Positions 13,369 to 57,532 of a DNA stretch of 64,000 bases are shown here, piece after piece. Origin of the DNA: Acidithiobacillus thiooxidans ATCC 19377 (GTDB taxonomy: Bacteria > Pseudomonadota > Gammaproteobacteria > Acidithiobacillales > Acidithiobacillaceae). The DNA is taken from NCBI RefSeq assembly GCF_009662475.1, contig NZ_CP045571.1, forward strand, positions 2,788,501-2,852,500, given 5' to 3'. The position numbers were made by a program, and so were the translations under genes. The stretch's first letter is position 1. Each line of letters opens with the position of its first letter. Under the pieces are notes generated by a model. The model had not been told where the DNA came from, ran no database searches, and saw only the letters and a program-made list of their open reading frames with translations.

Positions 13369-14280
13369 TTATACGATGCCTTTGGCCGCAAGCAGGTCCA
13401 TGGAATCGCTGACGTTGTCGGGAATGCCGACCTTGCGCGCAGACAGGCCCATAGCCAACCCTAACAACTGGGTGAAGTAAATGACCTTGACGTTGGATTT
13501 GATACCGAATTCCGTCTCCGCACGGACCTGGTGCATTTCCAGCCCGGAGTGACAGGTCGGACATTCCGTCGCAATAACTTCAGCGCCGGCATCTTCGGCT
13601 GCCTGGAGGATATTCAACACCAACTGCGTGGAGGTATCCGAATCAGAAAGCGTATGCGCACCACCACAGCAAGCAGTTTTCAAGGGAAAGTCTACGGCTA
13701 CGGCACCCGCTGCATTGAGCAGGTCGTCCATAAAATGCGGGGCATAGCTGGATTCAGAGCCGGGACCCTGGTCCTTTTCCGGGAAGATCTGCCGGGGACG
13801 GGTATACATACAGCCATAATAATTGGCTATTTTCAGACCGTTCAGACTTTTTTTGACCTTGCTCTTGATGCCATCAGGACCGACTTCTTCCATGAACCAT
13901 TCCAGAGCATGCAACGTCCGTACATCACCGTCGTATACCGGATCGCCGGATTTGTCGGCCAGATCCTGAACCGTCTTCATGGTCTCTTCGGAAGTGGCAC
14001 ATTCATATTCCGTCTGCTTCAGATTGCGGTAACAACCGTTGCAAGGGGCCATCACCGTATCACAACCCTGCAATTTGCTGGCAATGGCCAGATTGCGTGC
14101 GGACATGTAAGTCTGCAGCATGGGGTGGATGTTCTTCACCTCCATGGCGCCGCAACAGTTGTAGTCTTCGAGGTTTTCCATCTGCAGGCCAAGTTCCTTG
14201 ACCAGAACGCGCGTGGACTTGTCGTAGGGGCCGCCAGAACCTTCCAGCGCACACCCCGGATAATATGCAACCTTAGCCAT
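13369..14280 (-). CDS. hdrB2: HdrB2, CCG-domain subunit of sulfur-oxidising heterodisulfide reductase-like complex
   Basis: A 303-residue protein with two CCG-type domains: CCGA at residues 42-45 and CCGG at 204-207, each with earlier partner cysteines (Cys10, Cys80, Cys157). In HdrB these bind noncubane 4Fe-4S clusters at the disulfide-handling site. Its start overlaps hdrC2 by 8 bases. It is the last gene of the hdrC1-B1-A-orf-C2-B2 set and is followed at once by a terminator. The sHdr complex oxidises protein-bound sulfane sulfur to sulfite in the cytoplasm. Confidence 0.92.
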   Translation of the reverse strand: MAKVAYYPGCALEGSGGPYDKSTRVLVKELGLQMENLEDYNCCGAMEVKNIHPMLQTYMSARNLAIASKLQGCDTVMAPCNGCYRNLKQTEYECATSEETMKTVQDLADKSGDPVYDGDVRTLHALEWFMEEVGPDGIKSKVKKSLNGLKIANYYGCMYTRPRQIFPEKDQGPGSESSYAPHFMDDLLNAAGAVAVDFPLKTACCGGAHTLSDSDTSTQLVLNILQAAEDAGAEVIATECPTCHSGLEMHQVRAETEFGIKSNVKVIYFTQLLGLAMGLSARKVGIPDNVSDSMDLLAAKGIV

Positions 14281-14992
14281 GATGAGCGGCCTCCTTCTGT
14301 GCTTTCACATATTCTGCGAGTACTTCTCCGGTCTTGCCCCAGGACTTGGTTTTCGGACGGAAAACAACATTCATACCCATTTTCGCCAACTGCCCCAAAG
14401 GCAAGCCCTTGGACAGACGCTTTCCGAACTCAACAATCCAGGCCTGCACCAGAGGCTGATTGGAACGCTTGTAAAAACCCATCATGACTTCGGTATCTTC
14501 AATGCGACCAAACTCAATACACTGATGGGTGAATTCTTCGTCAAAGTGAGTGGAAAGGGTCTTGGGGGTCAACCCATTATCTTCCATCCAGTGTGCGGTG
14601 GCTTTCATGACGCCTTCAGGACGCACGTCCTTTGGGCAGATGTTGGTGCACTTGTTACAGGACACGCACTGCCAGATGATGTCCTTATCTTTCATCAACT
14701 CGGCCTTCAGGCCCAGACGAATCAGATAAATCCAGTAACGCGGATTGAAGTCCACGTTCTGTGCATACATGGTGCAGGAGTTGGTGCAGGAACCGCACTG
14801 CCAACAACGATGCACATTCTCGCCACCGCTGTAGCTCTGAATGATTTTTTCGAAATTTTCTTCATAGTCGGTGAGCGTACGGGGAGTAATCATCGTGTTC
14901 CAGGACCCTGAAACATCCACTCCGTCCACTACCAGATGGTCGTGCTGTAAAATCCGATCTGGATCGATCAGTGTTTTTTCATGAATAGCCAT
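14273..14992 (-). CDS. hdrC2: HdrC2, iron-sulfur subunit of the sHdr complex
   Basis: The 239 residues carry two classical 4Fe-4S sites: Cys63, 66, 69 and 73 (CWQCGSCTNSC) and Cys109, 112, 115 and 119 (CVSCNKCTNIC). No signal peptide is present, consistent with the cytoplasm. It passes electrons between HdrB2 and the flavoprotein HdrA. TAGGAG lies before the ATG. It follows the 277-residue subunit by 23 bases and overlaps hdrB2. Confidence 0.92.
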   Translation of the reverse strand: MAIHEKTLIDPDRILQHDHLVVDGVDVSGSWNTMITPRTLTDYEENFEKIIQSYSGGENVHRCWQCGSCTNSCTMYAQNVDFNPRYWIYLIRLGLKAELMKDKDIIWQCVSCNKCTNICPKDVRPEGVMKATAHWMEDNGLTPKTLSTHFDEEFTHQCIEFGRIEDTEVMMGFYKRSNQPLVQAWIVEFGKRLSKGLPLGQLAKMGMNVVFRPKTKSWGKTGEVLAEYVKAQKEAAHHG

Positions 14993-15015: not shown

Positions 15016-15849
15016 TCAATGAATGTCGTCTCTTTTGATGCGAGACCCGCCCATCCGCCGCTGCACTTCAACACCCAGCAACTTACGAATCTGCTCCGTA
15101 AAGTCGGTCTGACCGCCAAAGTCCGAACGCAAAAAGCCTTCTGCCATTGCCCGTACATACTGTGAATACTGATGAGCGAGGATGATGTCCACCATGTAGG
15201 GAACATCACGATATACGCCCAACTCCAGCAGTGTTTCACGCATCCACTGGCGCAGCCCCTCAAACATTTCGGGACTCTCGCCAAAAGGAAAATCCGTGAG
15301 GTAATCCCCACCACGTATAAACTCACGAATGGCTCCGGAAGTGGTTCCTTGATCCCAGACCCAGCGAGTCATCAGAGGATACCGCTCCGGATCGCTGAAG
15401 TGCAGGACTTCAGCAGCCACATCCCTGATGACGCGTTTGACTTTTCCGGTAGCTGGCAAGGCCTCTTCGAATCTTGCCATGCGCTGCGTCAGATCGCCGT
15501 GTCCGGTGAGCAGATCGCGCATCAACTCCCCAACCTTGGCCGCACCTTGTTCCTCAATGAGCGGCCATATTTTCCGTCGCGCCGTAAACATCTGCGCGAC
15601 GAGATGTTCCAATTGTGTTTCGGTCAGGGGTTGCTGTTCTTCCAGTAGCAGACGGCGAAAACTTGCCGTCTTTTCTGCCATGCTACTCACCAGATCGGCA
15701 AGTCCCTGTTGTCCCTCAAAAGCTTCTTCCAGTTCATAGAAAGAACGATTGAGCAGACCCTTGTCGAGCTCAATGGGCAGCGTGGCTGGAACGATATGTT
15801 CTTCGTTCCTGTCCTGGTAGATATCAGCTGGCAACTTTCTGCTGTCCAA
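15016..15849 (-). CDS. Conserved sHdr-cluster protein (Hyp) of unknown function
   Basis: A largely helical protein of up to 277 residues without cysteine motifs, found at this same position, between hdrA and hdrC2, in sHdr operons of Acidithiobacillus and other sulfur oxidisers. No ATG exists near the 5' end. The first usable starts are TTG at 15849, overlapping the end of hdrA by 26 bases, or TTG at 15834; a rare start codon inside the upstream gene implies coupled, low-efficiency translation. The function is unknown; a structural or assembly role in the complex is an inference from strict linkage. Confidence 0.75.
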   Translation of the reverse strand: MDSRKLPADIYQDRNEEHIVPATLPIELDKGLLNRSFYELEEAFEGQQGLADLVSSMAEKTASFRRLLLEEQQPLTETQLEHLVAQMFTARRKIWPLIEEQGAAKVGELMRDLLTGHGDLTQRMARFEEALPATGKVKRVIRDVAAEVLHFSDPERYPLMTRWVWDQGTTSGAIREFIRGGDYLTDFPFGESPEMFEGLRQWMRETLLELGVYRDVPYMVDIILAHQYSQYVRAMAEGFLRSDFGGQTDFTEQIRKLLGVEVQRRMGGSRIKRDDIH

Positions 15850-16879
15850 AGAGATCGGCTACTGCTCGTGAACCAGCTGACTGCCCTTGAGCAATCGAAG
15901 TATCGATATCTTCCGGGCCGGTAGCCGCGCCACACACGTAAATACCCTTGCGCGTCGTTCCCTGGCTATTGGTATACTGCTCGGCACGATCAATAAAGCC
16001 GTGTTTTTCGAGACCAATACCAAAAGTCTTGGCAATTTCAGCATTCAAAGCATTGGGATCCATACCGATAGCATGAACCACGATATCCATGGGAATCACG
16101 ATAGGACGCTTGACCAGAGTATCTTCGCCCTTCACCAGCAAACGACCGTCCGGTGATTTGGTGACTTCGGCAATACGCGCCTTGACGAACTTGGTCTTGT
16201 ACTCTTCTTGACTCTTCCAGTAGAACTTGTCTTCGTAAAGACCAAAGGTACGAATGTCCATGTAGTAAATGAACACGTCGGTGCTCGGTGAAATTTCCTT
16301 GATTTCCATCGCTAGATTCGTGGAAACGGTGCAGCAGATTTTGGAGCACCATTCACGACCAATCTGACGGTCACGTGACCCTACGCAGAGCAGAATGGCA
16401 ACCCGCTCGGGTACCCGTCCATCCGAAGGACAGGTAATTTGACCGGTACCAACCATCTGTTCCATCTGGGTGGTGGTCAGTACGTCTTCATAGGTACCAA
16501 AACCCCATTCCGGCTTGTTGATGGAGTCAAAGTGGGTGAAACCGGTACCCAGCACAATGGATCCAGCCTCGACCTTTTCACCATTGCTCAGAGTCGCCGT
16601 AAAATTACCGGCTTCCCCTTCAACCGTGGTCACCTTGGTAGATTTGTGGATAGCCACATTGCCATCTCCTTCTACCCGACTGACCATACGACCAATAGCG
16701 TCCTTGGCCCACTCACCCGAGGGAACCAGCTTGGCGTAACCAGAGATGATCGGGGCGCCACCGAGAATATCTTCCTTCTCGACGATGACCGCTTTCTTGC
16801 CCATCGAAGCGATGGTTGCAGCTGCTGACAGACCGGCCGGGCCGGCACCTACGACTAATACTGTATCCTGTGCACTCAC
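15824..16879 (-). CDS. hdrA: HdrA, FAD-binding electron-distributing subunit of the sHdr complex
   Basis: A 351-residue FAD protein. The Rossmann motif GAGPAG is at residues 11-16, a central cysteine group (LCVGSRD then EWCSKICC) offers an iron-sulfur site, and GIYVCGAATGPEDI near 315-328 is the second flavin signature. It is shorter than methanogen HdrA and lacks the extra ferredoxin domains, as expected for the sulfur-oxidising type. The start is GTG at 16879, 8 bases after AAGGAG. The gene follows hdrB1 by 12 bases. Confidence 0.92.
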   Translation of the reverse strand: MSAQDTVLVVGAGPAGLSAAATIASMGKKAVIVEKEDILGGAPIISGYAKLVPSGEWAKDAIGRMVSRVEGDGNVAIHKSTKVTTVEGEAGNFTATLSNGEKVEAGSIVLGTGFTHFDSINKPEWGFGTYEDVLTTTQMEQMVGTGQITCPSDGRVPERVAILLCVGSRDRQIGREWCSKICCTVSTNLAMEIKEISPSTDVFIYYMDIRTFGLYEDKFYWKSQEEYKTKFVKARIAEVTKSPDGRLLVKGEDTLVKRPIVIPMDIVVHAIGMDPNALNAEIAKTFGIGLEKHGFIDRAEQYTNSQGTTRKGIYVCGAATGPEDIDTSIAQGQSAGSRAVADLFGQQKVAS

Positions 16880-16891
16880 TGATTTTTCTCC

Positions 16892-18235
16892 TTAAGCGCC
16901 CGCTTTCATGTTGATATGTTGGTTAGTGGCGAGTTCGGGGTTGTAGAGATATTCCACGTTGCCCTGCTCGACCTGTTTGAGATATTCCTGGAAGTCGGCT
17001 TTGGCCTTGTCCCAGCTGATGCCCATTTTTTCCACCAGATCTTCACAGGGTGAAGCATGCCACTGGAGCTGGACGATCTTGAAGGGATCAGCGCCACAGG
17101 CCAGGGCGGCCAGCTGCACGTCCGCAATGATCGGGATGCTGTAGTTCATGTCATGAGCCTTGCCGATCCACTGGTTCTTGTCCATGGTGGTGATACAGCC
17201 GGTGTCAATGCCAATCATGACGTCGGCGTTGGCTTCTTCCCGGGCCACCTTGATCTTGCGGTTCATGGTGAAGCTGCGGGTGAATTCGCGCTCGGAGATG
17301 ATGTGCCGGAAGCCAAAGCCACAGCAGTCATACCAGGTGGAGTAGTCGATGACCTGAGCTCCCAGCGCCTGGGCGACCGAGGTGCCGACGGCCGTGCGGT
17401 TGCCACCGAGAATGCTGTTGTCGTAAATGGCGTCTTCCGCCACCATCTTGTAGTAGTGACAGGCCGCATGGGTGGTCACCCGGATGTTGCTCATGTCGAT
17501 GGTCTGCAGTTCGCTGGCAATGCGGTTGCGCATGACATGCAACCATTCACTGTAGTGCACGACTTCTTCGGGAATGACAATCTTGCCATCGACCAGACGA
17601 CCGAGCTTGCCGAGGATTTTCTTGACCTTTTCGCGCAGTTCGGCTGATTCAATCAAATACTTGCGGATTTCCTTGTAGTTGCCGAAGGAGGTGCCGCAGT
17701 GGACCAGCGGGAAGAAGTGGCCGTTTTCATAGCCGTGCTGCTTGCCGGAGACATAGGCCTGATGGAAGTTGCGCAGGAAGACGGCGGCGAGGGATTCAAC
17801 ATTGCCGATGCCAGAGCCGTGGTAGTTCCAGGCGGTGCAGGAGGTCTGGTCGGTTTCGTCCAGATAATCCGTGCCAAAGTGGTTCATGAACCAGAGCAGG
17901 CTGGTGGGATAGCCGGGAATGTTGCCACACTGGCCGCAGCTCTTGTGATGCCAGAGCTGGTTGGTGGGTACCCGCTTTTTCCAGCCATAGAGAGTGTCTA
18001 CTTCAATAGGCTTGTGGTCATCGGTAATGCGGTGAACAATGATTTCACCTTCTTTTTCCAGTTCCCACATGTGCTCGCGAATGTCGTCCATACGCTCGCC
18101 CAGGTCCATGGTGCGACGGTCTACGTGACTGCGTACCCATGCCGTGGCCGCTTCCGCTTCGTTGGCCGATAAGTTCGTGTCCTGAAAAAAAGCTCCGTGC
18201 CCTGCTAATCCTTGCTGCGTGCTGTTGTCGCTCAT
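16892..18235 (-). CDS. hdrB1: HdrB1, CCG-domain subunit of the sHdr complex (operon copy)
   Basis: The 447 residues have an N-terminal extension of about 90 residues before the cysteine pair Cys100/Cys103 (SCGQCG), and a later CCG motif in STWYDCCGFGF, for a noncubane cluster. It probably holds the second catalytic disulfide/persulfide site of sHdr. AAGGAG lies 6 bases before the ATG. It follows hdrC1 by 18 bases. The same sequence recurs at 55690-57039; the copies agree over 1340 bases apart from at least one silent change in codon 11 (GCA here, GCG there), and diverge just outside the coding frame. Confidence 0.93.
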   Translation of the reverse strand: MSDNSTQQGLAGHGAFFQDTNLSANEAEAATAWVRSHVDRRTMDLGERMDDIREHMWELEKEGEIIVHRITDDHKPIEVDTLYGWKKRVPTNQLWHHKSCGQCGNIPGYPTSLLWFMNHFGTDYLDETDQTSCTAWNYHGSGIGNVESLAAVFLRNFHQAYVSGKQHGYENGHFFPLVHCGTSFGNYKEIRKYLIESAELREKVKKILGKLGRLVDGKIVIPEEVVHYSEWLHVMRNRIASELQTIDMSNIRVTTHAACHYYKMVAEDAIYDNSILGGNRTAVGTSVAQALGAQVIDYSTWYDCCGFGFRHIISEREFTRSFTMNRKIKVAREEANADVMIGIDTGCITTMDKNQWIGKAHDMNYSIPIIADVQLAALACGADPFKIVQLQWHASPCEDLVEKMGISWDKAKADFQEYLKQVEQGNVEYLYNPELATNQHINMKAGA

Positions 18236-18253: not shown

Positions 18254-18934
18254 TCAGTCTTCCTGGCTCTCGAGCCAGTCTTCATAATCTTCCCGTTTTT
18301 CATCAATGAAATCCTCAATCACATCAAAGAGGTTTTCATCCATGGTTTCCAGAGACTTCAGCACACCCGTCATTTCCCAGATGGTGTACATTTCTACGGA
18401 AGTTTTCAGGGAAACCTCCCAGGCCGTTTCTACCGTTTGCAGCGTGCGAACCGGGATTGCTTTGCGTAGAATCCGCAAATCTCCTTCAACCTTCTGAATA
18501 TTGGGGCCCCAGTCCGGGAAATGATCGGGCTGGATCATGTCAGGAGAAAGCTGATTACCCGTGGTAATCAGTTTGAGCATTACGCGACCAAAGGGGCGCA
18601 ACACATCTTTGGCCGATTGCATACCATGGCGAATGGAGACTTCGCGCATGATCATGACCAGTCCACCGGGAGAATTCTTGAAAGGACAACGTGCTGCACA
18701 GGTCATGCACTGAGCACAGGCCCAGATTTTTTCCTGCATGGCGTCATAAATCTGTTCCACGTTTTCGGTCCAGAGCAACTGGACAATTTCACGGGGACTA
18801 TAATCGTAGAACTGCGCCGACGGGCAGGTAGCCGTACAAATGCCACAATTCAAACAGCCATTGAGTTCGTGGTCATAACGAAAATCCGCACGGATTTCGT
18901 CAAACATCTCTTTCATTTCAGCGTAAGTCGCCAT
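18254..18934 (-). CDS. hdrC1: HdrC1, iron-sulfur subunit of the sHdr complex
   Basis: The 226 residues have two 4Fe-4S motifs: Cys27, 30, 33 and 37 (CLNCGICTATC) and Cys73, 76, 79 and 83 (CAQCMTCAARC). An acidic C-terminal tail is rich in Glu and Asp. It is the first hdr gene after dsrE2 (64-base gap) and pairs with HdrB1. GAGGAG lies 7 bases before the ATG. Confidence 0.92.
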   Translation of the reverse strand: MATYAEMKEMFDEIRADFRYDHELNGCLNCGICTATCPSAQFYDYSPREIVQLLWTENVEQIYDAMQEKIWACAQCMTCAARCPFKNSPGGLVMIMREVSIRHGMQSAKDVLRPFGRVMLKLITTGNQLSPDMIQPDHFPDWGPNIQKVEGDLRILRKAIPVRTLQTVETAWEVSLKTSVEMYTIWEMTGVLKSLETMDENLFDVIEDFIDEKREDYEDWLESQED

Positions 18935-18998: not shown

Positions 18999-19469
18999 TC
19001 AAATAAATAACGTGATATCGGACTCACCGGCGAATTCAAAAAAGGCCGCTGCACCGCCCAATTCAATTCCGTCAATAAAGTCAGCCGTATCAAACTCGAA
19101 AAGATCGACTGTCATCTGACAAGCGATCATTCTTACTTCAGCCTCAACACAAAGCTCGCGCAATTCATCCAGACTGGCTACGCCCTTGGCTTTCATTTTG
19201 CTTTTCATCATGGATGTGGCCATTCCTTCCATACCTGGCAACACCATCATCAGGGTAGGCATGGGAACAGGCATCGGCATGGCTGGGTTACCCAAGGGGC
19301 TGACGCGCAGATGACTCAGATCTTTCTTGAGCAATTGCAGGCCGTAAAAGGTGAAGAAGATTTCCACACTGTAGCCCAGGGCTGCAGCAGTGGATGCCAG
19401 GATAAAGGGAGGATACCCCCAATCAAGGGTGCCTTTTGTGGCAACAATCGCTAGTTTTTTCTCGTCCAT
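18999..19469 (-). CDS. dsrE2: DsrE2-type sulfur carrier protein
   Basis: A 156-residue DsrE-family protein. The middle segment (residues 57-95) is rich in Pro and Met, the hydrophobic insertion typical of DsrE2 proteins that may make it membrane-associated. Cys107 and Cys117 are candidate persulfide sites. In Acidithiobacillus rhodanese-tusA-dsrE clusters it takes part in moving sulfane sulfur to sHdr. CAGGAG precedes the ATG. It lies 40 bases after tusA and directly ahead of hdrC1. Confidence 0.86.
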   Translation of the reverse strand: MDEKKLAIVATKGTLDWGYPPFILASTAAALGYSVEIFFTFYGLQLLKKDLSHLRVSPLGNPAMPMPVPMPTLMMVLPGMEGMATSMMKSKMKAKGVASLDELRELCVEAEVRMIACQMTVDLFEFDTADFIDGIELGGAAAFFEFAGESDITLFI

Positions 19470-19864: not shown

Positions 19865-20194
19865 TCAACCGGGTAACTGACCAATAGGCAGTCCACGATT
19901 CGCCCAGGCTGAAATTCCACCGCGCAAATTAAGCACTTGTCCAAAACCCTGAGCAACGGCAAAAGCTGCAGCCTGGGCTGAACGTCCACCACTGAGACAA
20001 TAAAATACCACCGTTTTGGATTTATCCAACTGCTGTAGAGACATCGGCAGCATGTGCAAGGGTACGTGCCGGGCTCCTTCGATGATGCCACGTGCCACCT
20101 CAGCGGGAGAACGTACATCCACCAGAATGAACTCATCACCTTGATCGCTCAAGGCCTTGAGTTGATCTGCCGTGATTTCCTGAAAACCGTACAT
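19865..20194 (-). CDS. Single-domain rhodanese (thiosulfate/persulfide sulfurtransferase)
   Basis: A 109-residue cytoplasmic rhodanese. Cys66 in the loop CLSGGRS is the persulfide-forming nucleophile, with VDVRSPAEV at residues 25-33. It probably loads sulfane sulfur, for example from glutathione persulfide or thiosulfate, onto DsrE and TusA encoded next to it. There is no signal peptide. The gene precedes tusA by 124 bases and follows moaA by 72. Confidence 0.92.
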   Translation of the reverse strand: MYGFQEITADQLKALSDQGDEFILVDVRSPAEVARGIIEGARHVPLHMLPMSLQQLDKSKTVVFYCLSGGRSAQAAAFAVAQGFGQVLNLRGGISAWANRGLPIGQLPG

Positions 20195-55190: not shown

Positions 55191-55514
55191 TCAGGACACA
55201 TCCGCACGAAAAGTCAGCAACGGGAGTTCACCATGGGCGATGGACCTCTCAATGAAACTCGCCCTTCCCGGCTTGATTTGCTCGAGGCTGCAGCGCGCCT
55301 CGGATGTCTGTCCGCAGATTGCCGAAAACAATACCTCCAGTTCCAGAGGATTCACCCGCAAACAGCCAAAAGGATCCTCCGCATTTTTGCTGCGCCAAAA
55401 TAAATTCGGTAACCAACCCTTGCTCTGCACCAGCGGATTCAGGTAAAGCGTCCGGCAACGCTCTGCTATTTGTAATTCAGACTGTTCTTTTTGAGTATTT
55501 TCCATTGATTTCAT
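55191..55514 (-). CDS. Small unknown protein A, paralogue of the gene at 57230-57532
   Basis: The 107 residues start at the ATG at 55514 (AAGGA 4 bases before). It shares with the protein at 57230-57532 an ordered set of residues: RC..L..NP.V, W, FW, LEV..SA, PGR..FI.R and G..PLL, which is too much for chance over 85 positions. Cysteines occur near residues 20, 51, 67 and 75; only the first is clearly shared. There is no signal peptide. It is coupled to the ATP-grasp ligase and divergent from the second hdrB1. The family and function are not known to me. Confidence 0.75.
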   Translation of the reverse strand: MKSMENTQKEQSELQIAERCRTLYLNPLVQSKGWLPNLFWRSKNAEDPFGCLRVNPLELEVLFSAICGQTSEARCSLEQIKPGRASFIERSIAHGELPLLTFRADVS

Positions 55515-55588
55515 TTGATCCTTAGTTTGGTCTCTGCAAATTTGTGCCTGTTCCCGCATGGTGCGGCAAGCTGAACGACAAAACCACT

Positions 55589-55604
55589 TTCCTTGGCAAA
55601 GGAA
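55589..55604. promoter_or_regulatory. Inverted repeat in the divergent gap before hdrB1 copy 2
   Basis: TTCCTT and AAGGAA flank GGCA, a perfect 6-bp inverted repeat midway between the two divergent genes. It lies just upstream of the -35 box proposed for hdrB1 copy 2, a natural operator position. Confidence 0.4.
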
Positions 55605-55607
55605 TTA

Positions 55608-55636
55608 TTGTGGAGCATAATAGTCAATTATATAAA
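55608..55636 (+). promoter_or_regulatory. Candidate promoter of hdrB1 copy 2
   Basis: TTGTGG (-35) and TATAAA (-10) are 17 bases apart. Start near 55643 leaves a 47-base leader containing an inverted repeat (TGGCC, ATTC, GGCCA at 55664-55677) that overlaps the ribosome site AAGGAG. Confidence 0.42.
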
Positions 55637-55689
55637 CAGTTAATAATGTTTATTCGCAATAGCTGGCCATTCGGCCAAGGAGTGCAGCA

Positions 55690-57029
55690 ATGAGCGACAA
55701 CAGCACGCAGCAAGGATTAGCGGGGCACGGAGCTTTTTTTCAGGACACGAACTTATCGGCCAACGAAGCGGAAGCGGCCACGGCATGGGTACGCAGTCAC
55801 GTAGACCGTCGCACCATGGACCTGGGCGAGCGTATGGACGACATTCGCGAGCACATGTGGGAACTGGAAAAAGAAGGTGAAATCATTGTTCACCGCATTA
55901 CCGATGACCACAAGCCTATTGAAGTAGACACTCTCTATGGCTGGAAAAAGCGGGTACCCACCAACCAGCTCTGGCATCACAAGAGCTGCGGCCAGTGTGG
56001 CAACATTCCCGGCTATCCCACCAGCCTGCTCTGGTTCATGAACCACTTTGGCACGGATTATCTGGACGAAACCGACCAGACCTCCTGCACCGCCTGGAAC
56101 TACCACGGCTCTGGCATCGGCAATGTTGAATCCCTCGCCGCCGTCTTCCTGCGCAACTTCCATCAGGCCTATGTCTCCGGCAAGCAGCACGGCTATGAAA
56201 ACGGCCACTTCTTCCCGCTGGTCCACTGCGGCACCTCCTTCGGCAACTACAAGGAAATCCGCAAGTATTTGATTGAATCAGCCGAACTGCGCGAAAAGGT
56301 CAAGAAAATCCTCGGCAAGCTCGGTCGTCTGGTCGATGGCAAGATTGTCATTCCCGAAGAAGTCGTGCACTACAGTGAATGGTTGCATGTCATGCGCAAC
56401 CGCATTGCCAGCGAACTGCAGACCATCGACATGAGCAACATCCGGGTGACCACCCATGCGGCCTGTCACTACTACAAGATGGTGGCGGAAGACGCCATTT
56501 ACGACAACAGCATTCTCGGTGGCAACCGCACGGCCGTCGGCACCTCGGTCGCCCAGGCGCTGGGAGCTCAGGTCATCGACTACTCCACCTGGTATGACTG
56601 CTGTGGCTTTGGCTTCCGGCACATCATCTCCGAGCGCGAATTCACCCGCAGCTTCACCATGAACCGCAAGATCAAGGTGGCCCGGGAAGAAGCCAACGCC
56701 GACGTCATGATTGGCATTGACACCGGCTGTATCACCACCATGGACAAGAACCAGTGGATCGGCAAGGCTCATGACATGAACTACAGCATCCCGATCATTG
56801 CGGACGTGCAGCTGGCCGCCCTGGCCTGTGGCGCTGATCCCTTCAAGATCGTCCAGCTCCAGTGGCATGCTTCACCCTGTGAAGATCTGGTGGAAAAAAT
56901 GGGCATCAGCTGGGACAAGGCCAAAGCCGACTTCCAGGAATATCTCAAACAGGTCGAGCAGGGCAACGTGGAATATCTCTACAACCCCGAACTCGCCACT
57001 AACCAACATATCAACATGAAAGCGGGCGC
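55690..57029 (+). repeat. 1340-bp inverted duplicate of 16896-18235
   Basis: Near-perfect repeat, inverted relative to the operon copy, 37 kb apart. The only difference I found is the third base of codon 11 (position 55722 versus 18203); I did not align every base. It starts exactly at the ATG and ends in the last codons of the shorter copy. Confidence 0.95.
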
Positions 57030-57039
57030 ATCTGCCTGA
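55690..57039 (+). CDS. hdrB1: HdrB1, second copy outside the sHdr operon
   Basis: The 449 residues match the operon copy at 16892-18235 through residue 447 and end in Ser-Ala, two residues longer. The cysteine pair at 100/103 and the CCG motif are intact, so it should be functional. DNA identity covers 55690-57029 and stops at the coding edges; leader and downstream DNA differ. The gene has its own promoter candidate, ribosome site and terminator. It is flanked by two small paralogous proteins, not by hdrC or hdrA. It could boost HdrB1 supply, replace the operon copy under some conditions, or act in a separate complex. Confidence 0.95.
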   Translation: MSDNSTQQGLAGHGAFFQDTNLSANEAEAATAWVRSHVDRRTMDLGERMDDIREHMWELEKEGEIIVHRITDDHKPIEVDTLYGWKKRVPTNQLWHHKSCGQCGNIPGYPTSLLWFMNHFGTDYLDETDQTSCTAWNYHGSGIGNVESLAAVFLRNFHQAYVSGKQHGYENGHFFPLVHCGTSFGNYKEIRKYLIESAELREKVKKILGKLGRLVDGKIVIPEEVVHYSEWLHVMRNRIASELQTIDMSNIRVTTHAACHYYKMVAEDAIYDNSILGGNRTAVGTSVAQALGAQVIDYSTWYDCCGFGFRHIISEREFTRSFTMNRKIKVAREEANADVMIGIDTGCITTMDKNQWIGKAHDMNYSIPIIADVQLAALACGADPFKIVQLQWHASPCEDLVEKMGISWDKAKADFQEYLKQVEQGNVEYLYNPELATNQHINMKAGASA

Positions 57040-57066
57040 GCAGTTGAAATAGCATCATGCTGATCA

Positions 57067-57092
57067 AACCCCGCCTTGCAGCGGGGTTTTTT
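57067..57092 (+). terminator. Terminator after hdrB1 copy 2
   Basis: AACCCCGC and GCGGGGTT form a perfect 8-bp stem around CTTGCA, with a T run of six overlapping its end. Confidence 0.92.
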
Positions 57093-57163
57093 ATTACCAT
57101 ACGAAATCTATCCGGGCATGGAATACTTCAATCCCCAAAAAACTCCCCTTCAGGTACCTTTTT

Positions 57164-57185: not shown

Positions 57186-57229
57186 CCCGAACAGGCGATG
57201 AAATGATCCGTTTTGACAGGAGGAAGACT

Positions 57230-57532
57230 GTGGACAGCAAGGCTATCAATACCCGTTGCGTAGAACTTTTCCAAAATCCCAACGTCCGTCTGCGCATGTG
57301 GAATGCGCGGATGTTCTGGCATGTAGGTGATCAGATGAATGTAGCACCTGCCGCCCTGACTGATCCCAAAGTTGACACCTGCGAGCTGGAAGTCATGCTC
57401 AGTGCTGCCGCGCTGACCAATTCAGAATGTGCCGCAGAACTGGACAAAAAAGAACCCGGCCGCGTTGCATTCATTCAGCGTCAGGTTCGCGAAGGCATGC
57501 GCCCGCTGCTGCGTCCTGCCAACAACGCCTGA
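57230..57532 (+). CDS. Small unknown protein B, paralogue of the gene at 55191-55514
   Basis: The 100 residues start at GTG 57230, 6 bases after AGGAGG; the ATG at 57203 lies before that site and is rejected. The shared pattern with protein A runs from RC..L near residue 9 to PLL near 93. It is a soluble protein, with cysteines near residues 10, 51 and 64. It follows the second hdrB1 after a terminator and a palindrome. The function is unknown; its linkage to hdrB1 suggests a role around sulfur oxidation. Confidence 0.75.
   Translation: MDSKAINTRCVELFQNPNVRLRMWNARMFWHVGDQMNVAPAALTDPKVDTCELEVMLSAAALTNSECAAELDKKEPGRVAFIQRQVREGMRPLLRPANNA

Follow-up and report, generated by a model that had tools for sequence, protein, structure and literature searches.

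Two hdrB1 genes of Acidithiobacillus, probably an ancient pair kept alike by recurrent gene conversion

The window, by which we mean the whole 64-kb stretch of Acidithiobacillus thiooxidans DNA that was analysed, carries two hdrB1 genes, one inside a sulfur-oxidation operon and one standing alone (here the solo gene). Comparison of both loci across the Acidithiobacillaceae makes it very probable that they are an ancient pair, predating the radiation of the family and homogenized by recurrent gene conversion; the question of dosage in the sulfur complex is kept apart from this claim and is taken up below. We suggest that the two inverted copies would stay near-identical through recurrent homologous recombination that leaves no lasting rearrangement, presumably of the RecA type, and that selection may retain the pair because both genes would supply one sHdr complex.

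The two genes in the window

The operon runs on the minus strand from 20194 to 13369, in the order rhd...dsrE-hdrC1-hdrB1-hdrA-hyp-hdrC2-hdrB2, and the solo gene lies on the opposite strand as a unit with its own signals. The features are as follows.

13369-14280, minus strand: hdrB2, sHdr operon member
14273-14992, minus strand: hdrC2, sHdr operon member
15016-15849, minus strand: hyp, sHdr operon member
15824-16879, minus strand: hdrA, downstream neighbour of operon hdrB1 (ORF and profile reading)
16892-18235, minus strand: operon hdrB1, 447 aa, a CCG-domain protein (blastn match to its twin)
18254-18934, minus strand: hdrC1, upstream neighbour of operon hdrB1 (ORF and profile reading)
18999-19469, minus strand: dsrE, at the operon head (ORF reading; gene order as published for A. 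ferrooxidans)
19865-20194, minus strand: rhd, at the operon head (ORF reading; gene order as published for A. ferrooxidans)
18236-55689, no strand: 37.5-kb interval between the inverted hdrB1 copies, with mreB, mreC, lipoate genes, soxY and the glycyl-tRNA synthetase gene
55191-55559, minus strand: orfX, a small protein upstream of solo hdrB1, 35% identical to orfY; marks the solo locus in relatives
55593-55621, plus strand: sigma-70-type promoter of solo hdrB1, TTGGCA-17-CATAAT, then a conserved TAGTCAA-TTA/CTA stretch (scan; family leader alignment)
55677-55682, plus strand: ribosome-binding site AAGGAG of solo hdrB1 (read from the sequence; kept in the leader alignment)
55690-57039, plus strand: solo hdrB1, 449 aa, 1339 of 1340 bases in common with the operon copy
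57066-57089, plus strand: intrinsic terminator of solo hdrB1 (scan and fold; z-score -2.9 for 57040-57100)
57203-57532, plus strand: orfY, paralogue of orfX, downstream of solo hdrB1; marks the solo locus in relatives

When 14-21 kb of the window was compared by blastn with 53-60 kb, positions 16896-18235 aligned with 57029-55690 over 1340 bp, gapless and on opposite strands, with 1339 of 1340 bases identical, confirming the match that a sequence-only reading of the window had reported, beginning at the ATG and ending in the last codons. The single silent difference that it had noted was found again at nucleotide 33, where the operon gene has GCA and the solo gene GCG, both encoding Ala. The operon gene ends GCT TAA and the solo gene reads on as GCA TCT GCC TGA, with two more residues, and the two products differ by two C-terminal residues only. 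The leaders are dissimilar, and downstream of the frame lies hdrA in one case and an intrinsic terminator in the other, so that the flanks are indeed unrelated, as had been claimed. A self-blastn of the window returned no long repeat besides the hdrB1 pair. The protein scores above the cut-off for Pfam CCG, and matches the NCBIfam HdrB model with E = 9e-36 over residues 89-403, yet below the cut-off of that model, which is a methanogen equivalog.

The paralogous small proteins encoded by orfX and orfY, which flank the solo gene and are both kept at this place family-wide, matched nothing in Pfam or NCBIfam. A short dyad-like stretch, ATAGTCAA(C/T)TAT (55617-55630), occurs once in the window, at the -10 box of the solo promoter and just beyond it, and is kept family-wide; it could be a regulator site.

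Conserved loci and homogenized genes across the family

Matches to hdrB1 were found in all 29 family genomes searched. In complete or well-assembled genomes the operon gene lies between hdrC1 and hdrA, and the solo gene has rimK/orfX on one side and orfY on the other, PCD and QueH coming farther out where found; the two genes are about 26-39 kb apart and in inverted orientation. The junctions of both loci were seen in 25 of the 29 genomes, the other four (G015, G018, G019, G027) being fragmented there, and none was seen to have the solo site empty. Both loci are thus orthologous by position throughout the family, and the duplication predates both speciation and the family's genera. In draft genomes the contigs mostly break inside hdrB1, often at the same codon at both loci (for example 42/42 and 404/404 in G001, 395/395 in G008, 380/380 in G016), as is to be expected of a short-read assembler at an exact repeat. 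An assembly artefact as the source of the second copy was ruled out, since other genomes have positional orthologues and the promoter of the A. ferrooxidans gene has been mapped.

The sequences of these positional orthologues nevertheless pair by genome. Within genomes the two copies are 97.7-99.9% identical at the nucleotide level in 8 of 11 genomes (window genome 99.9%; A. marinus, G009, and A. ferrianus, G002, both 99.4%; G017 and G026 98.8%; HP-2, G011, 98.6%; G021 98.2%; YTS05, G022, 97.7%), whereas the same locus compared between species is mostly 80-93% identical, one exception being the close pair of the window genome and HP-2, which are 97.5-97.8% identical at the same locus. An excess of within-genome over between-genome identity at each locus is what the sequence-only reading had expected of an old pair under gene conversion, a proposal that the comparison strongly supports. 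Differences within pairs are mostly synonymous and change between species is mostly silent, and homogenization reaches synonymous sites, third positions being included in the 99.9% identity of the window pair. In the hdrB1 tree the copies cluster by genome and not by locus, in most cases with high support, and forcing the nine solo genes into one clade was rejected (AU p = 8e-54). Quartet sites favoured pairing of paralogues over pairing of orthologues by 20:1:0 when the window genome was set against HP-2 and by up to 198:0:0 for distant pairs, and did so in all genome pairs but one, that of A. ferrooxidans (G007, which carries the exact published AFE_2586 promoter) and G003, which we take to be A. 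ferridurans (24:97:0).

These two species and A. ferruginosus (G008) have pairs that are only about 90% identical, so conversion is not obligatory. In A. ferrooxidans and A. ferridurans the differences are crowded in nucleotides 1-400, the remainder being 84-99% identical and mostly above 93%, and A. ferruginosus shows the same pattern; the three iron oxidizers appear to have escaped conversion in the N-terminal third of the gene. In two Sulfuriferula-related genomes, the two bearing a solo gene among the fetched loci from outside Acidithiobacillaceae (L107, L110), operon and solo genes fall in separate clades.

Within the N-terminal part, residues ~66-95 exist in two versions that form a patchwork over species and copies among the fetched loci, and the solo protein carries a distinct block in A. 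ferrooxidans, A. ferridurans, A. ferruginosus and G020. Although G020 and A. ferrooxidans belong to different genera, the blocks of their solo genes are 92-100% identical, compared with 74-94% for the operon copies; the second block version is nearly identical between genera and also closely resembles that of mobile copies. Vertical descent alone is insufficient for such likeness between genera, and part of the mosaic must, on these identities, be horizontal. A purely vertical reading, with one version belonging to the operon gene and another to the solo gene, was dropped on the same grounds, and the mosaic was excluded from inferring the direction of conversion.

That the identity stops at the edges of the reading frame, as had been claimed, holds in the window, but the exactness does not, since the edges vary between relatives by up to 14 bp. 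The left edge lies anywhere between 14 bp before the ATG and 8 bp within the gene, and the right edge lies at nucleotides 1331-1340; in G017 the left edge is 14 bp upstream of the ATG and in G002, G005 and G012 it is 11 bp upstream, in all four through the ribosome-binding site, whereas in A. ferrooxidans it lies inside hdrB1. Conversion requires homology, and where the flanks have none it is confined to the frame plus or minus a few bases. Long after the duplication only the selected reading frame would still match, and tracts would come to end near its edges. Edges that wander by up to 14 bp are expected where homology ends, and a frame-precise mechanism is unneeded.

Other duplicates and alternative explanations

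The same genome holds other hdr duplicates that serve as controls. Two further hdrB1 genes (89% identical at the amino acid level; G000:1443095 and 2356211) lie outside the window in a 4.3-kb segment that is present twice and is 99.7% identical, flanks included (L005 10009-14337; L006 9825-14153). This is the look of a truly recent hdrB1 duplication, and it agrees with the earlier argument that ordinary duplication carries flanks. By reading of the ORFs, the neighbours of these copies resemble DUF488, carboxymuconolactone decarboxylase-like and AlkA-like proteins and transposases, and a similar further copy is present in G013 (L166). An ordinary recent segmental duplication as the origin of the solo gene was ruled out, since the recent hdrB1 duplication in this genome carries its flanks, and duplication of the whole operon was ruled out as well, hdrB1 alone being repeated in the window and HdrC1 having only one copy genome-wide. 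A second hdrA (about 90% identical at the amino acid level; G000:C1:2922347-2923375, L191 6324-7439) stands alone beside a MerR-like regulator and is present in 10 of 29 genomes, that of the window included. The statement that only one subunit is doubled is accordingly right within the window and wrong genome-wide, where the second hdrA and the two further hdrB1 genes exist. The second and operon hdrA genes are 77-83% identical at the nucleotide level in five of the six genomes compared, no closer than between species (97% in G017). With the second hdrA mostly unhomogenized, homogenization thus seems to belong to the hdrB1 pair rather than to all sHdr duplicates.

Could near-identity limited to the frame reflect recent copying of exactly that frame behind new signals, either RNA-mediated or by mobile-element capture? 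The window by itself, with near-perfect identity limited to the reading frame, would allow it, and the sequence-only reading had offered a frame-precise event as one of two possibilities. This was not borne out: the edges differ by species and run 11-14 bp upstream into the ribosome-binding site in four genomes, no mobile element is present at the solo gene, and the 20 ORFs scanned in the 37.5-kb interval include neither a transposase nor a recombinase. The solo locus, its promoter and its neighbours are kept family-wide, and as a recent event such copying is already refuted by this orthology; we regard it as the least credible of the explanations considered. Scarcely more credible is a loss of the solo gene in every species, followed each time by renewed duplication into the old site. 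Such turnover would likewise make copies pair by genome, but it needs many independent flank-less insertions at the same spot, each downstream of the one conserved promoter and with unchanged neighbours; no family genome was seen with the site empty, and the mosaic tracts within the pairs of A. ferrooxidans, A. ferridurans, A. ferruginosus and G020 oppose replacement of whole genes.

Somewhat more probable, though we still consider it quite unlikely, is that the pair serves as an inversion switch: a crossover in hdrB1 would turn the 37-kb interval round, and conversion would be a by-product or non-crossover outcome. Inverted near-identical repeats do bound the segment in the window, and the inverted orientation is kept in relatives. 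Junctions of the order orfX-hdrB1-hdrA appear in A. ferrianus (L053/L054) and in the MAG DS4.bin78 (L056), and A. ferrianus also has hdrC1-hdrB1-orfY, but the A. ferrianus genome was assembled from Illumina pairs with inserts of about 460 bp across a perfect repeat of 1342 bp, so that the join is arbitrary; because short reads cannot span this repeat, the A. ferrianus junctions were set aside as evidence for or against. HP-2 has two extra hdr fragments on small contigs (L078, L079), diverged by 3-5%, in which a solo-type leader with hdrB1 is followed by hdrA in one case and by hdrC2 in the other (hdrB1-hdrC2-hdrB2-hdrC1), which suggests that exchanges between solo and operon loci have occurred at least in HP-2. 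The nine other genomes resolved at both loci all have the parental arrangement, unlike what a freely flipping segment would give. The absence of a recombinase from the scanned ORFs also speaks against a switch, though RecA-mediated inversion needs no dedicated recombinase. If the segment did invert, the operon would be split into hdrB1-hdrA-hyp-hdrC2-hdrB2 under the solo promoter and rhd...dsrE-hdrC1-hdrB1 under the operon promoter; such a switch would be slow and family-wide, and cultures would be mixtures. Given the inverted orientation, crossovers cannot delete the interval with its mreB, mreC, lipoate, soxY and glycyl-tRNA synthetase genes.

Role of the solo gene and relation to known systems

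The solo gene proved to be under its own signals, as the earlier reading had it, with its own promoter, ribosome-binding site and terminator found by scan and leader alignment. The TTGGCA-17-CATAAT promoter is kept in solo leaders family-wide and aligns with the published promoter of AFE_2586, the A. ferrooxidans solo hdrB. That promoter, whose sequence is present unchanged in L042, was mapped by 5' RACE (PMC5506826), and the passages on AFE_2586 in the published studies give its transcript as higher on sulfur and its regulatory region as bound by RegA (PMC2754497, PMC5506826); published work also found the protein raised in pyrite biofilm cells. The likeliest role of the solo gene, which we put forward with moderate confidence, would be to provide extra HdrB1 under separate, sulfur-responsive control, that is, dosage, and the solo and operon genes may be kept identical since both would supply the same sHdr complex.

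That the solo HdrB1 instead works in a complex of its own, or is exchanged for its twin as a subunit with other properties, is in our judgement unlikely. The distinct block at residues ~66-95 in the solo proteins of the three iron oxidizers and G020, the second hdrA in ten genomes and a solo unit with its own promoter all speak for it. Against it, the proteins of the pair are identical save for the last residues in the window genome and most others, which leaves nothing to swap, and hdrC1 is single-copy across the family, HP-2 excepted. For the window species, products that differ only in two C-terminal residues argue against a functionally different HdrB1, to judge from the sequences; the N-terminal variant block in A. 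ferrooxidans and its relatives leaves room for specialization of the solo gene there. The hdrB qPCR primers described for A. thiooxidans (PMC4109375) match both window copies perfectly, at 17699-17824 and 56101-56226, and data obtained with them would merge operon and solo expression if the A. thiooxidans used there is organized alike.

The solo hdrB and its sulfur induction are already known in A. ferrooxidans ATCC 23270, where AFE_2586 occupies the same locus, with orfX upstream, orfY downstream and the same promoter (PMC2754497, PMC5506826). It differs from the window locus in that its copies are only 90% identical, so their near-identity could not be noticed in that species, and where these papers treat it, AFE_2586 is presented as an additional HdrB subunit with gene conversion unmentioned. 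The operon copy and its context correspond to the standard sHdr cluster hdrC1B1A-hyp-hdrC2B2 with rhd and dsrE (PMC6335251), unlike which the window has a second HdrB1 transcription unit outside the operon. Like tufA/tufB and other genes in long-lasting concerted evolution (PMC6053082), the hdrB1 genes are ancient duplicates at two loci, homogenized at synonymous sites too, whose product acts in a complex or key pathway; unlike them, it is one complex subunit gene that is consistently homogenized, and the copies are inverted within 40 kb. That 2018 survey mentions neither an Hdr gene nor Acidithiobacillus in its main text (PMC6053082). No earlier report of hdrB conversion or of family-wide concerted evolution of hdrB1 was found in the literature searched.

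It is rare for concerted evolution in bacteria to outlast genera, and the hdrB1 case is unusually clean, with two marked loci, a single gene, a second hdrA as control and three species that escaped. A practical consequence is that short-read assemblies break, and may misjoin, at the pair. For the biology of the family, the finding suggests that its cells need the same HdrB1 from two promoters, and it turns the solo hdrB puzzle into a testable one.
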